Positions 4,163 to 8,753 of a stretch of 12,015 nucleotides of DNA are shown here, piece by piece (positions within the stretch are counted from its first letter, which is position 1; each line of letters opens with the position of its first letter). Both the position numbers and the translations under genes were made by a program. Origin of the DNA: Gammaproteobacteria bacterium (GTDB lineage: Bacteria > Pseudomonadota > Gammaproteobacteria > Steroidobacterales > Steroidobacteraceae); assembly GCA_009923475.1 (NCBI GenBank), contig RFTM01000020.1, forward strand, positions 1 to 12,015. Direction: 5' to 3'. Under the pieces are notes generated by a model that was given only the letters and a program-made list of their open reading frames with translations, had not been told where the DNA came from and did no database searches.

Positions 4163-4429
4163 TCAGGGTCGGTCGGCCGCGAGGCCGTGGTCGCGCAGTT
4201 TGCGGCGCAGCGTGGCGCGGTTGATGCCGAGGATGCCGGCGGCGCGGCTCTGGTTGCCGGCGGCGTGCTTGAGGACGACGCGCAGCAGCGGCTCCTCGAC
4301 CTCTTTCATGACGAGCTGGTAGAGGCCGCCGGCGCGATGGCCGTCGAGGTGCGCGAGGTAATCTTCGAAGGCGCGCTCGGCATGGCCGCGCAGCGGCAGG
4401 GCGCCGGTGTCCCGATCGTCTTTGGCCAT
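4163..4429 (-). CDS. fis: Fis family nucleoid-associated DNA-binding protein
   Basis: Fis bends DNA, organises the nucleoid and regulates many growth-phase genes. This 88-residue protein matches the family over most of its length. The dimerisation helices hold [19 protein letters not shown] (35-53). The C-terminal helix-turn-helix holds [20 protein letters not shown] (58-77), close to E. coli Fis including the GINR-TLR-KL core. It is shorter than the 98-residue E. coli protein: about 11 residues precede the PLR segment instead of about 25, so most of the N-terminal beta-hairpin region used for Hin/Gin invertase activation appears absent. ATG at 4429 has GGGAGG about 8 nt upstream. It sits 24 nt after dusB and 13 nt before purH. 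The dusB-fis pairing is conserved in gammaproteobacteria and fis-purH adjacency occurs in pseudomonads. High confidence for the family; regulatory scope in this organism is inference. Confidence 0.95.
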
Positions 4430-4453: not shown

Positions 4454-5470
4454 TCACGCCGCCTGCGGATCCGCCCGGCTCCACGCCTCGAACTCTCCGA
4501 CCGCGCACGCGAACTGCGATGCCGTGTCCGGGGCCGCCATGAACCGCGCCCGTGCCGCGGGCGCGTCGTCGAGCAGCTTGCCGTACCAGCCGAGGTGTTT
4601 GCGTGCGATCCGCAGTCCGAAATCTTCGCCGTGGAAGGCGTAGATGGCCTGCAGATGCGAGAGGATGATATCACGCCGCTCGGCGCGGGAGAGCGGGGCG
4701 GGCAGCCGCCCGCGCGTCAAAAGACCGTTGATGTCGCGGAAGATCCACGGCGCGCCGTGCGCGGCCCGGCCCACCATCACCCCCGCCGCGCCCGTCCGGT
4801 CGAGCACGTCGCGGGCTTTTTGGGCCGAGTCCACGTCGCCGTTGGCGACCACAGGTATGGACACCGCGGCGCGGATCTCCCGGATGGTCTCGTATTCGGC
4901 CTCGCCCTCGTAGAAATCGGCGCGCGTCCGGCCGTGGATGGCGAGCGCGGCGATGCCCGCGGCTTCGGCGATGCGCGCCACCGCGACCCCGTTGCGGTGC
5001 TCGCGGTCCCAGCCGGTGCGGGTCTTGAGCGTGACCGGCACGCCCGTGCCCTGCACGGCGGCGACCACCGCTCCGAGGATGCGCCCGACCAGCGGCTCGT
5101 CCTGCAGCAGCGCCGAGCCGCACAGGCGGTTGCAGACTTTCTTGGCCGGGCAGCCCATGTTGATGTCGATGATCTGCGCGCCGAGGTCGACGTTGCGCCG
5201 GGCCGCTTCGGCGAGCGCCTCGGGCTCGGCGCCCGCGAGCTGCACCACGCGCGGCTCGGGTTCGCCGGAATGGTCCATGCGCAGGCGCGACTTGCGCGAG
5301 TTCCAGAGCCGCGTGTCGGAGGTGATCATCTCCGAGGCGGCGAGCGCCGCGCCCAGCCCGCGCGCGACGATGCGGAACGGGCGGTCCGTGACGCCTGCCA
5401 TCGGCGCGAGCACGGCGGGCGCCGGGATCTCCCAGCGGCCGATGCGGAACGCGGGTGCCTGATCGCTCAT
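4454..5470 (-). CDS. dusB: tRNA-dihydrouridine synthase B
   Basis: DusB is an FMN enzyme that reduces uridines in the tRNA D-loop to dihydrouridine using NADPH. The start chosen, ATG at 5470, gives 338 residues beginning MSDQAPAFRIGRWEIP. The open frame extends upstream, but that part overlaps the prmA gene and has no family similarity. Motifs: APMAGVTDRPFR (22-33), SEMITS (46-51), INMGCPAKKV (103-112) with catalytic Cys107, KTRTGWD (149-155) with the conserved Lys, IHGRTR (178-183), VANGDV (208-213) and MVGRAAHGAPWIF (232-244). These fit the DusB subgroup better than DusA or DusC, also supported by the following fis gene. The start overlaps the stop of prmA in an ATGA, suggesting translational coupling; the Shine-Dalgarno site is weak. 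fis begins 24 nt downstream. Confidence 0.95.
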   Translation of the reverse strand: MSDQAPAFRIGRWEIPAPAVLAPMAGVTDRPFRIVARGLGAALAASEMITSDTRLWNSRKSRLRMDHSGEPEPRVVQLAGAEPEALAEAARRNVDLGAQIIDINMGCPAKKVCNRLCGSALLQDEPLVGRILGAVVAAVQGTGVPVTLKTRTGWDREHRNGVAVARIAEAAGIAALAIHGRTRADFYEGEAEYETIREIRAAVSIPVVANGDVDSAQKARDVLDRTGAAGVMVGRAAHGAPWIFRDINGLLTRGRLPAPLSRAERRDIILSHLQAIYAFHGEDFGLRIARKHLGWYGKLLDDAPAARARFMAAPDTASQFACAVGEFEAWSRADPQAA

Positions 5471-6927
5471 GGCGTCGGCCCGTGGGCGCAGACCGGCGCG
5501 CGGTCGGCGCGCGGCAGGCAGGCATCGAGCTCGAAGCCGACCACGTTCGGACCGGGGTCCTGCGCCGAGAACTCCGCCTCCACGCGGCCGCCGGCGGCCA
5601 TGGTCGCGGCGCCCGTCGGGGCGCCGGTCGGGGCGTACTCCGCGGGCGCGAGGTCGCGGCGCGCCACCGGCCTGCCCTGCGCATCGAGCAGCACCACCCG
5701 CAGCAGCGGCATGGGCTGCGGCCGCGGGGCCGTGTTGCGCAGCGTCGCGCGCACCGTGAGGAAGCCCGGCGCGTCGTCTTCGCCGGCGCCGCGCTGCACG
5801 ACCTCGTACGCGCGCGGATCCCAATCAGGCTGCAGGGGATGGCCGACGGCGGCGGCCGAGCCGGCGACCGCAGGACCGACGATCGGCAGCGTGGCGAGCG
5901 CGGCGCGCTCCTGCCAGGCGACCTGCCCGGCGAGCAGCAGTCCGAGGACGGCGACCGTCGGCCCGCTGCCGCGCGGCGCGGCGGCCGGGGGCGGCGGCAC
6001 GAGGTCCGCCGCGGTCACGGCGCTGCTGCGCCCGAGGAGGCAGGTCCAGCCCTCGAGCGAGCGCCAGGCACGAAGCGACAGGCGCGGCGCGTAGGCCTCG
6101 ATGAGTTCCTCGGCCTGCTCGTCGAGCAGGCCCGCGAGCACCAGCGTGCCACCCGGCTTGAGCAGCGCGCAAAGCTGCGGCGCGAGCTCCTGCAACGGTC
6201 CGGCGAGGATGTTGGCGAGCACGATGTCCGCGCCGCCGGCGGCCGTCACCGCGGCCGTGAGGGCCTCCTGCGAGCCGTGCACCTGCAGGCGGTCCGACAC
6301 CTCGTTGCGACCGGCGTTGTCGCGGGTCGCGGTGAGCGCCTGCGGGTCGATGTCGAAGACATGCGCCTGCGCGGCGCCGAGCTTCAGCGCGGCGACGGCG
6401 AGCACGCCCGAGCCGCAGCCGTAATCGACCACCACGCCGCCGATGAGCCCCGTGCCGTCGCTCGATGCCGCATCGAGGGATTCGAGGCAGAGCCGCGTCG
6501 TCGGATGGGTGCCGGTGCCGAAGGCGAGTCCCGGGTCGAGTTCGACGACCACGGCCCCGGGCTCATCGAGCGTCGCGTGCGAGGGGCGGATCCACAGCCG
6601 TTCGCCGAAGCGCATCGGCTTGAAGTCGCGCAGCCACTCGCGCTCCCAGGCGCGCTCTTCCACGGCGCGCACCTCGAGGCGGCCGACGTCGCAGCCGATG
6701 TCGGCGGCGAGGAGCACGAGCTGCGTCGGCGGCAGCGCATCGGCCTCGAAGATCGCCTGCAGGCGGGTCGCGGGCCACAACCGCACCTCGCCGGGCGCGG
6801 GCTCGAGGATCGCGTCGTCGCGCCGGTCGGTGTAGGTGACGGCGAGCGCGCCGGCGGCGAAACAGGCGGCTTCGACGGCCTCGGCGTCGAGCCCGTCGAG
6901 ATCGAGCGTGAGGGCGACCTGCGGCAC
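5467..6927 (-). CDS. prmA: Ribosomal protein L11 methyltransferase PrmA fused to a C-terminal membrane/DUF3426 domain
   Basis: One uninterrupted 486-residue frame starts with GTG at 6927. Residues 1-300 are a full PrmA, the SAM-dependent methyltransferase of L11: WEREWLRDFKPMRFGERLWI (94-113), DPGLAFGTGTHPTT (131-144), SAM motif I VVDYGCGSG (166-174), DIDP (192-195) and the catalytic-region LANILAGPL (237-245). It ends at EGWTCLLGR, where E. coli PrmA (293 residues) ends. The frame continues through a Pro/Ala linker (about 303-322), one probable membrane segment (about 323-339) and a domain resembling DUF3426 (about 365-475, with TVRATLRN and VLLDAQGRPVARRDLAPAEY). In related genomes that domain belongs to a separate zinc-ribbon protein next to prmA; no zinc-ribbon CxxC pair exists here. 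No in-frame ATG starts the second part; GTG at residue 303 is possible but lacks a good ribosome site. The gene follows accC after 15 nt and overlaps dusB by ATGA. The PrmA call is secure; the DUF3426 call is strong by pattern. Confidence 0.92.
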   Translation of the reverse strand: MPQVALTLDLDGLDAEAVEAACFAAGALAVTYTDRRDDAILEPAPGEVRLWPATRLQAIFEADALPPTQLVLLAADIGCDVGRLEVRAVEERAWEREWLRDFKPMRFGERLWIRPSHATLDEPGAVVVELDPGLAFGTGTHPTTRLCLESLDAASSDGTGLIGGVVVDYGCGSGVLAVAALKLGAAQAHVFDIDPQALTATRDNAGRNEVSDRLQVHGSQEALTAAVTAAGGADIVLANILAGPLQELAPQLCALLKPGGTLVLAGLLDEQAEELIEAYAPRLSLRAWRSLEGWTCLLGRSSAVTAADLVPPPPAAAPRGSGPTVAVLGLLLAGQVAWQERAALATLPIVGPAVAGSAAAVGHPLQPDWDPRAYEVVQRGAGEDDAPGFLTVRATLRNTAPRPQPMPLLRVVLLDAQGRPVARRDLAPAEYAPTGAPTGAATMAAGGRVEAEFSAQDPGPNVVGFELDACLPRADRAPVCAHGPTP

Positions 6928-6942
6928 GGGGCGGGTGCGCGC

Positions 6943-8286
6943 CTATTTCAGGCCGAGGCGCCGCTCGAGGTAGTGGATGTCGAGCCCGCCCTGCTGGAAG
7001 GCCGCGTGCGCGAGGATCTCCTGGTGCAGCGCCGAGTTGGTCTTGATGCCCTCGACCACCATCTCGGCGAGCGCGTTGCGCATGCGCGCGATGGCGGTGT
7101 CGCGCGTCTCGCCGTAGGAGATGAGCTTGGCGATCAGCGAGTCGTAGTTGGGCGGCACGCTGTAGCCCGAGTAGAGATGGCTGTCGACGCGCACGCCGGG
7201 GCCGCCGGGCGCATGCCACAGCCGCACCGGACCGGGCGAGGGCATGAAGGTCTTCGGGTCCTCGGCGTTGATGCGGCACTCGAGCGCGTGGCCGCGCAGT
7301 ACGATGTCCGATTGGGTCCACGGCAGCTTCTCGCCCGCCGCGATCATGAGCTGCGCCTTGACGAGGTCGATGCCGGTGATGAGCTCCGTCACGGGGTGCT
7401 CGACCTGGATGCGCGTGTTCATCTCGATGAAGTAGAACTCGCCGTTCTCGTACAGGAACTCGAGCGTGCCGGCGCTGCGGTAGCCGACCGCGCGGCAAGC
7501 CTCCACCACGCGCTCGCCCATGCGCGCGCGCTGCGCCTCGGTGATGCCGGGGGCGGGCGCCTCCTCGATGACCTTCTGGTGCCGGCGCTGCATGGAGCAG
7601 TCGCGCTCGCCGAGGTGGATCACGTTGCCGTGGTGGTCGGCGAGCACCTGGAACTCGATGTGCCGCGGCTTCTCGAGGAACTTCTCCATGTACACCTGGT
7701 CGTTGCCGAAGGCGGCGAGCGCCTCGGACCGGGTGACGTTGATGGCGTGCAGCAGCGCCGCGGCGTTGTGCACCACGCGCATGCCGCGGCCGCCGCCGCC
7801 GCCCGAGGCCTTGATGATGACCGGGTAGCCGATGTCCTTGGCGATGCGCAGGTTCTCGTCGCCGTCGGCGCCGAGCGGACCGCCGGAGCCGGGCACGCAG
7901 GGCACGCCGTAGGACTTCATCGCGCGGATCGCCGAGACCTTGTCGCCCATCAGCCGGATGGTCTCCGCCTTCGGGCCGATGAAGATGAAGCCGCTCTGCT
8001 CGACGCGCTCGGCGAAGTCGGCGTTCTCGGAGAGGAAGCCGTAGCCGGGGTGGATCGCCGCGGCGTCGGTGAGCTCGGCCGCCGCGATCAGCGAGGGCAT
8101 GTTGAGGTAGCTCTTGGCCGAGGGCGGCGGGCCGATGCACACCGACTCGTCGGCGAGCAGCACGTGCTTGAGGTTGGCGTCGACGGTCGAATGCACCGCC
8201 ACCGTCTTGATGCCGAGCTCGCGGCAGGCGCGCAGCACCCGCAGCGCGATCTCGCCGCGGTTGGCGATGATGACCTTGTCGAGCAT
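6943..8286 (-). CDS. accC: Acetyl-CoA carboxylase, biotin carboxylase subunit
   Basis: AccC carboxylates the biotin on AccB using ATP and bicarbonate, the first half-reaction of malonyl-CoA synthesis for fatty acids. The start chosen, ATG at 8286, gives 447 residues beginning [14 protein letters not shown], the standard family start (E. coli 449). The frame extends upstream to 8415 but only into accB in another frame. Features: biotin-carboxylase N-domain ([12 protein letters not shown], 79-90), ATP-grasp Lys116 and Lys159, glycine loop GGGGGRGM (162-169), [18 protein letters not shown] with Lys238, Glu276, Glu288, and the active site [13 protein letters not shown] with Arg292 and Glu296, plus Arg338. 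By my count these fall at the same numbers as in E. coli, so the enzyme looks intact. It begins 2 nt after the accB stop, so the pair is almost certainly co-translated. Stop TAG; prmA follows after 15 nt. Confidence 0.98.
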
Positions 8287-8288
8287 GG

Positions 8289-8753
8289 TCAGGCGATCGA
8301 GAACAGCGGCTGGCCGAACTCGACCGGGTCGCCGTTCTGCACCAGCACCGAGGTGATGCGTCCGGCGCGGTCGCTCTCGATCTGGTTCATCATCTTCATG
8401 GCCTCGATGATGCACAGCACCTGGCCGACCTTCACCTCGTCGCCGATCTGCACGAAGGCCTTGGCGCCCGGCGCAGGCGCCGAATAGAACGTGCCGACCA
8501 TCGGAGCCTGCACCGTATGGTCGGCGGACCTCGGCGCGGCGGGAGCGGCGGCGATCGTCGCGGCGGGGGCGGCGGCCTCGGCGGCCGCCATGGACAGCGG
8601 CATCGGGGGCGGCGCGTAGTACGACATCTGCGGCGGGCCGCCGGCGGGCGCGCGGCTGATGCGCACCGATTCCTCGCCTTCCTTGATCTCGATCTCGTTG
8701 ATGCCCGACTCTTCGAGCAGCTCGATCAGTTTCTTGACCTTGCGGATATCCAT
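8289..8753 (-). CDS. accB: Acetyl-CoA carboxylase, biotin carboxyl carrier protein
   Basis: AccB carries the biotin that shuttles carboxyl groups from AccC to the carboxyltransferase AccAD. The protein has 154 residues (E. coli 156). It shows the N-terminal [18 protein letters not shown] segment, a Pro/Ala/Met-rich flexible linker (about 35-78), and a C-terminal biotinyl domain with APMVGTFY (83-90), a protruding-thumb-like [10 protein letters not shown] segment (91-100) and the biotinylation site EAMKMMN, where Lys120 should be modified by BirA. ATG at 8753 is preceded by a run of seven G as its only Shine-Dalgarno-like site. The 108 nt upstream carry a hairpin, short repeats and a weak promoter-like sequence, so accB may begin its own transcription unit. 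AccC follows with a 2-nt gap. In pseudomonads aroQ sits just upstream of accB; it is absent here. Confidence 0.97.

Follow-up and report, generated by a model that had tools for sequence, protein, structure and literature searches.

The window, the whole 12,015-nucleotide stretch of DNA analysed here, encodes the L11 methyltransferase PrmA, a hydrophobic segment and a DUF3426 domain in one uninterrupted reading frame. We consider it likely (probability about 0.72) that this frame gives one polypeptide with a competent cytoplasmic PrmA, one membrane pass and a periplasmic DUF3426, and that it arose in place, its former zinc ribbon being reduced to a fossil. What is new here is that the fusion recurs across Gammaproteobacteria, and the recurrent joins hint at a possible link between PrmA and its neighbour protein.

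The features of the window are listed below. The genes flanking the fusion are presumed to be accB, accC, dusB, fis and purH.

8289..8753, minus strand: presumed accB
6943..8319, minus strand: presumed accC, start codon tentative
5467..6927, minus strand: fused gene prmA-TM-DUF3426, 486 aa, GTG start, TGA stop
6028..6909, minus strand: PrmA (L11 methyltransferase) domain, residues 7-300, from Pfam, NCBIfam and alignment
5971..6027, minus strand: proline/alanine-rich linker, residues 301-319, varying among relatives
6001..6021, minus strand: zinc-ribbon fossil AVTAADL, residues 303-309, matching what lies between the two CxxC pairs in the genus's unfused members
5914..5970, minus strand: predicted single TM segment, residues ~320-338, from hydropathy only, found at the corresponding position of the 26 fused proteins aligned
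5524..5955, minus strand: DUF3426 match, residues 325-468, overlapping the end of the TM segment
4454..5470, minus strand: presumed dusB, ATG start
4163..4429, minus strand: presumed fis

The ORF translation shows 486 codons with no internal stop. Pfam PF06325 (PrmA) matches residues 7-300 with 263.7 bits against a cut-off of 22, the NCBIfam prmA equivalog TIGR00406 covers residues 14-294, nearly the whole model, with 225.2 bits (cut-off 183.15), and PF11906 (DUF3426) matches residues 325-468 with 97.9 bits (cut-off 27.7). The first-pass annotation, which had described PrmA, linker, hydrophobic segment and DUF3426 in a single frame, is thus borne out by ORF, Pfam, TIGR00406 and hydropathy. Behind DUF3426, Cys470 and Cys480 are invariant in 26 aligned proteins of group A, as we call the set of 30 fused clusters to which the window protein belongs. 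The minus-strand order is accB-accC-[prmA-DUF3426]-dusB-fis-purH, with the TGA of the fused gene overlapping the dusB ATG as ATGA, and accB, accC, dusB and fis are kept around prmA in relatives. A PHROGs search gave zero matches. The opposite strand holds long open frames, e.g., 5455-8487 (plus strand, 1010 aa), which are common in GC-rich coding DNA.

Among the 24 genomes of the genus, seven carry the fusion (G000, G015, G021, G004, G008, G006, and G020; in G008 a contig end cuts the frame inside DUF3426) and two, G012 and G018, have separate prmA and zinc-ribbon/DUF3426 genes. Fourteen, G002 included, have no DUF3426 match and carry prmA directly before dusB, and in G011 (77% complete) prmA is absent from the assembly. 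A database search with the whole protein, suggested at first pass as a check for relatives with both domains, returned both Pfam domains in 30 of the 120 protein matches listed, three of these 30 being fragments, and several lineages turned out to share the fusion. One of the matches, P0001, has 486 aa and is 99% identical to the window protein; its contig is 15,113 bases long and that of the window, which fills its contig, has 12,015, so it comes from another assembly, possibly of the same sample. We calculated dN/dS (Nei-Gojobori, own script) for five pairs of group A with some members in common and for the pair G228/G081 (group C, see below). The five overlapping pairs gave 0.16, 0.11, 0.26, 0.20, and 0.25 for the PrmA part and, in the same order, 0.30, 0.23, 0.32, 0.22, and 0.33 for TM+DUF3426, with scattered (0.2 to 1.9) or incomputable values for the linker; the group C pair gave 0.21, 0.21 and, for the linker, 0.61. 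The low values for PrmA and for TM+DUF3426 mean that both halves are kept by selection, i.e., purifying selection acts on either half. The assemblies are fragmented, and a missing stretch or a frameshift could in principle mimic a fusion, but the same join in seven genomes and 30 protein clusters, together with dN/dS below 0.35 on either side of it, rules out an assembly artefact with near certainty.

PrmA is normally a free soluble enzyme of ~293 residues, and the window protein differs from it in being extended by a predicted TM segment and DUF3426. What it shares with the family (PF06325, TIGR00406) is the full-length match, the catalytic histidine, the SAM motif, dusB and fis downstream, and the target residues in L11. 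His141 aligns to His104 of Thermus thermophilus PrmA, described in passages of PMC3347575 as the likely catalytic base. The SAM motif DYGCGSG lies at residues 168-174, and the domain also contains Asn239; His141 and the SAM motif are invariant in 26 aligned fused proteins. L11 with Ala1, Lys3, and Lys39 is encoded in all six genomes in which L11 was found (nine searched; the L11 of G000 is L120). A second full PrmA match was not found in the fused genomes, where further matches were weak and covered just part of the domain, over the methyltransferase fold. Judged from these features, the fused protein most likely works as an L11 methyltransferase while tethered to the inner membrane, which would then be the site of action of the sole such enzyme detected in the genome.

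The hydrophobic stretch at residues 320-338 (19 residues, GES mean 1.43) is short, contains Gln335 and is outscored by another stretch just behind it, at 343-361 (1.64). The near-identical P0001 shows no charge bias, and these properties weigh against our preferred explanation. Scanning 39 fused proteins, we found a tail stretch with a GES value of at least 1.19 in 38, the remaining one, P0027, reaching 0.52. Passages of PMC5182063 and PMC5182065 describe the zinc ribbon of the Caulobacter protein ZitP as cytoplasmic and PopZ-binding, and the DUF3426 domain of the same protein as predicted to be periplasmic and needed for CpaM recruitment. The window protein resembles ZitP in having a TM segment followed by DUF3426 and a predicted cytoplasmic N-terminal head; it is unlike ZitP in that the PopZ-binding zinc ribbon is gone and PrmA takes its place; the likeness considered here is one of domains. 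By hydropathy and by analogy with the published ZitP prediction, the protein is plausibly anchored in the inner membrane with PrmA as its cytoplasmic head and DUF3426 outside, and DUF3426 might keep binding an envelope partner.

A single tethered product would not be formed if an internal start or proteolysis yielded a separate DUF3426 membrane protein. The fused gene of the window does have GTG at codons 304 and 310, and cleavage is possible. Neither GTG, however, has a Shine-Dalgarno match of more than 3 bases, in-frame ATG, GTG, and TTG are absent at codons 287-350 in G021 and G004, and across seven genomes no candidate start recurs at an obviously shared place. A conserved internal start in group A was thus not found in these seven genomes, and we regard two products as improbable.

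The relatives with separate genes point to where the tail came from. In a tree of 30 rows built from joined AccC, PrmA, and DusB, G018 and G012 branch ahead of a crown of seven fused and 13 lost-state genomes (crown support 100/99). The fused rows come out together in this tree, though weakly supported (56/47); in the PrmA tree, which includes five of the seven genomes, they group at 95/81. The zinc ribbon PF13719 was detected in two of the 24 genomes, the unfused G012 and G018, and was not found when sought elsewhere in the fused genomes of the genus; a diverged ribbon could escape this model, because the ribbon in the fused protein of G049, a genome of another family, scored 27.0 bits against the cut-off of 29.3. 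The CxxC...CxxC pattern is absent from the whole sequence, linker included, in all 30 group A clusters (3 fragments among them). G012, G018, and several further family members have a ribbon of the form CPxC-x5-VTAADLR-x-x-QGxVRCGxC, and the window linker, which reads GRSSAVTAADLVPPPP, holds AVTAADL. Its match to the G012 ribbon was reached by none of 300 linker shuffles; the same comparison gave 0/300 for P0016, 1/300 for P0003, and 8/300 for G021, and was negative for G006 (213/300), G020 (138/300), and group C (240/300). The fossil implies that the join passed through the zinc-ribbon gene and that the CxxC pairs were lost.

In G012 there is a start/stop overlap between the two separate genes. 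Like the window tail, the unfused proteins beside prmA occupy the same locus and have a TM segment and DUF3426; they differ in being encoded by a separate gene, in retaining the zinc ribbon and in having a longer linker, and those of G012 and G018 represent the likely source of the tail. These comparisons support an origin in place, in which prmA was joined to the directly downstream zinc-ribbon/TM/DUF3426 gene and the ribbon shrank to a short fossil. By such a join PrmA would occupy the ribbon's former position and form the cytoplasmic head of a bitopic protein. The first-pass annotation had given a separate neighbouring zinc-ribbon/DUF3426 gene in relatives as known and had proposed a merger with ribbon loss; the former is seen in G012 and G018, and the latter is supported by the position of that gene, the early branching of both genomes and AVTAADL in the linker.

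DUF3426 is dispensable in the genus, and its absence from 14 of 24 genomes counts against our preferred explanation. It could also mean that the fused DUF3426 is a decaying vestige heading for full loss. One protein, P0029, encoded on a contig of 1,461 bases, has a fused-type PrmA that has lost almost the whole of DUF3426 by deletion but keeps the C-terminal RAPVCARGAIP; it is the sole direct case that we saw and likely represents loss from the fused state. In the tails of lost-state PrmAs no fossil of the fusion is recognisable by eye. On the other side, TM+DUF3426 is under purifying selection, though in each of the five pairs from group A the selection is somewhat weaker than on PrmA, and many positions are invariant across 26 fused proteins. 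We hold decay to be improbable, about as much so as two separate products. At locus L021 of the small genome G022, prmA is interrupted by a single TAG ~52 codons after the match begins; the gene may be a pseudogene, or the TAG a sequencing error.

Outside the genus we found up to five more fused groups, all within Gammaproteobacteria and with the domain order of the window protein. Fused loci in the class were sought among the matches listed, as long-looking frames, and more may exist. G049, from another family of the same order, encodes PrmA, zinc ribbon, TM segment, and DUF3426 as 670 aa in one frame of 679 residues; G425 is fused in the same way, and G426, split by contig ends, is consistent with fusion. 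G228 and G081 have PrmA-TM-DUF3426 proteins of 492 aa without zinc ribbon (start of G081 tentative), and represent another order of the class, given that their order contains just these two. The 13 other loci read from the matches listed (10 of the class; G052, G055, and G196 included; G012, G018, and G011, read for other purposes, not counted) were all without fusion. Length-restricted database searches for long PrmA proteins returned both domains in 26/120 and 5/120 matches listed.

Among the matches listed in three database searches, the fused clusters number at least 55, comprising 30 in group A, 18 in group B (P0121-P0127 and P0129-P0139; the group also takes in the genomes G049 and G425), and seven others (P0148, P0149, P0151, P0152, P0154, P0156, and P0228). 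We refer to G228/G081 as group C, to P0152 as group D and to P0149 with P0156 as group E; the record of P0149 is named Methyloprofundus sp. The zinc-ribbon pattern occurs in 0/30 clusters of group A, in 17/18 of group B (P0138 being without), and in 2/7 of the others; within group E, P0149 has it and P0156 has not. This suggests that, in groups B and E, fusion came first and loss of the ribbon followed inside the group. Group B proteins thus have the fusion partner and domain order of the window protein, and differ from it in mostly keeping the ribbon and in forming a separate branch of the PrmA tree. The recurrence of the fusion, a fused group that mostly keeps its ribbon and the absence of DUF3426 from most genomes of the genus all go beyond the first-pass annotation.

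Unfused loci served as control. We used 73 loci with a usable PrmA, chosen non-randomly from high or suspicious matches and with at least one genome (G052) entering twice; DUF3426 was separate at 59, not found at 10 (some contigs being too short), and fused at four. Counting with a strict pattern over the whole frame, we found that the ribbon shares a frame with the best DUF3426 match at 56 of the 59 separate loci; at L028 and L095 it lies in a different frame of the locus. L097, where the DUF3426 gene lies on the opposite strand, is the sole unfused locus without ribbon. With 58 of 59 set against the counts for fused proteins, the ribbon is near-universal among the unfused loci sampled and often missing when fused.

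The PrmA tree indicates that the fusion arose more than once. This tree has 100 rows, 21 of them fused, and leaves out pieces <240 aa as well as L047, L051, L059, L060, L079, and L096 (duplicates or fragments). The fused/unfused state changes six times on it, a count that holds for this one tree (6-7 in the bootstrap, which had not converged), and the starred branches force three changes. A single clade of all fusions was rejected (p-AU 7.7e-7), as was a clade of groups A and C (p-AU 7.6e-4), and A+B (p 0.0445) and C+E (p 0.037) were borderline. B+C is compatible with the data (p-AU 0.276), and uniting C with D improves the likelihood over that of the free tree (p-AU 0.773). All of these p-values are optimistic, as the groups were named after the tree had been seen.

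Repeated joining need not mean that the tether has a role. It may be a tolerated by-product of adjacency, with each half keeping its old job; this is compatible with the proposed architecture and denies solely that the tether matters. As the two genes are neighbours in many Gammaproteobacteria and the N-terminus of the second protein is cytoplasmic, stop loss or small deletions could join them harmlessly, and 58 of the 59 separate DUF3426 loci examined, a non-random set, follow prmA on its own strand at a distance of no more than 2.5 kb. The start/stop overlap in G012 fits, as do the genome sizes, 4.3 and 3.6 Mb for the unfused G012 and G018 vs 1.4-2.8 Mb for the fused and lost-state genomes of the crown (completeness being unequal), and PrmA is joined to other domains too. 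According to passages of PMC3347575, an E. coli prmA mutant shows no noticeable difference from wild type, so the tether could be neutral; the same passages leave the purpose of L11 trimethylation unexplained. However, no PrmA-DusB fusion was seen in the 14 genomes of the genus with prmA directly before dusB, and among 120 matches listed, one PrmA-DusB protein stands against 26 PrmA-DUF3426 proteins (the list is biased to relatives of the fused query). We give the by-product a chance only slightly short of even.

Because the fusion was repeated and the ribbon then lost in several groups, the zinc-ribbon/DUF3426 protein may be a standing partner of PrmA across Gammaproteobacteria, the two forming one membrane complex in which PrmA replaces the ribbon. 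We hold this to be unlikely, though less so than two products or decay; if it were true, methylation of L11 or of some second substrate would be coupled to the cell envelope. Separate fusions of the two families are a concrete, testable lead that PrmA and the DUF3426 protein cooperate, and the locus offers a natural experiment with fused states with and without ribbon, separate genes and loss. A literature search, with most subscription papers outside its reach, found no paper on a PrmA-DUF3426 fusion among those listed, and in the literature searched DUF3426 was discussed only for ZitP of Caulobacter and kin. Since database domain annotation shows both domains, the fusion is undescribed as far as searched and not unseen; the first-pass remark that no description of this architecture was known holds for the literature searched and does not extend to database annotation.

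Several other proteins join PrmA to a different domain. P0153, P0158, P0166, and similar proteins carry ~140 C-terminal residues resembling PTP-NADK phosphatase (PF22741), which is among the precomputed domains of many of them (weakly in P0166, 19.8 bits against a cut-off of 27); some of these records are named Solimonas, Stenotrophobium, or Sinimarinibacterium. P0147 combines an upstream sodium/solute symporter (PF00474) with PrmA, and P0150, named Klebsiella pneumoniae, combines PrmA with DusB (PF01207); these two joins may be frameshift or sequencing artefacts. In P0143 and P0200, PrmA is in frame with a Fis-family HTH (PF02954).
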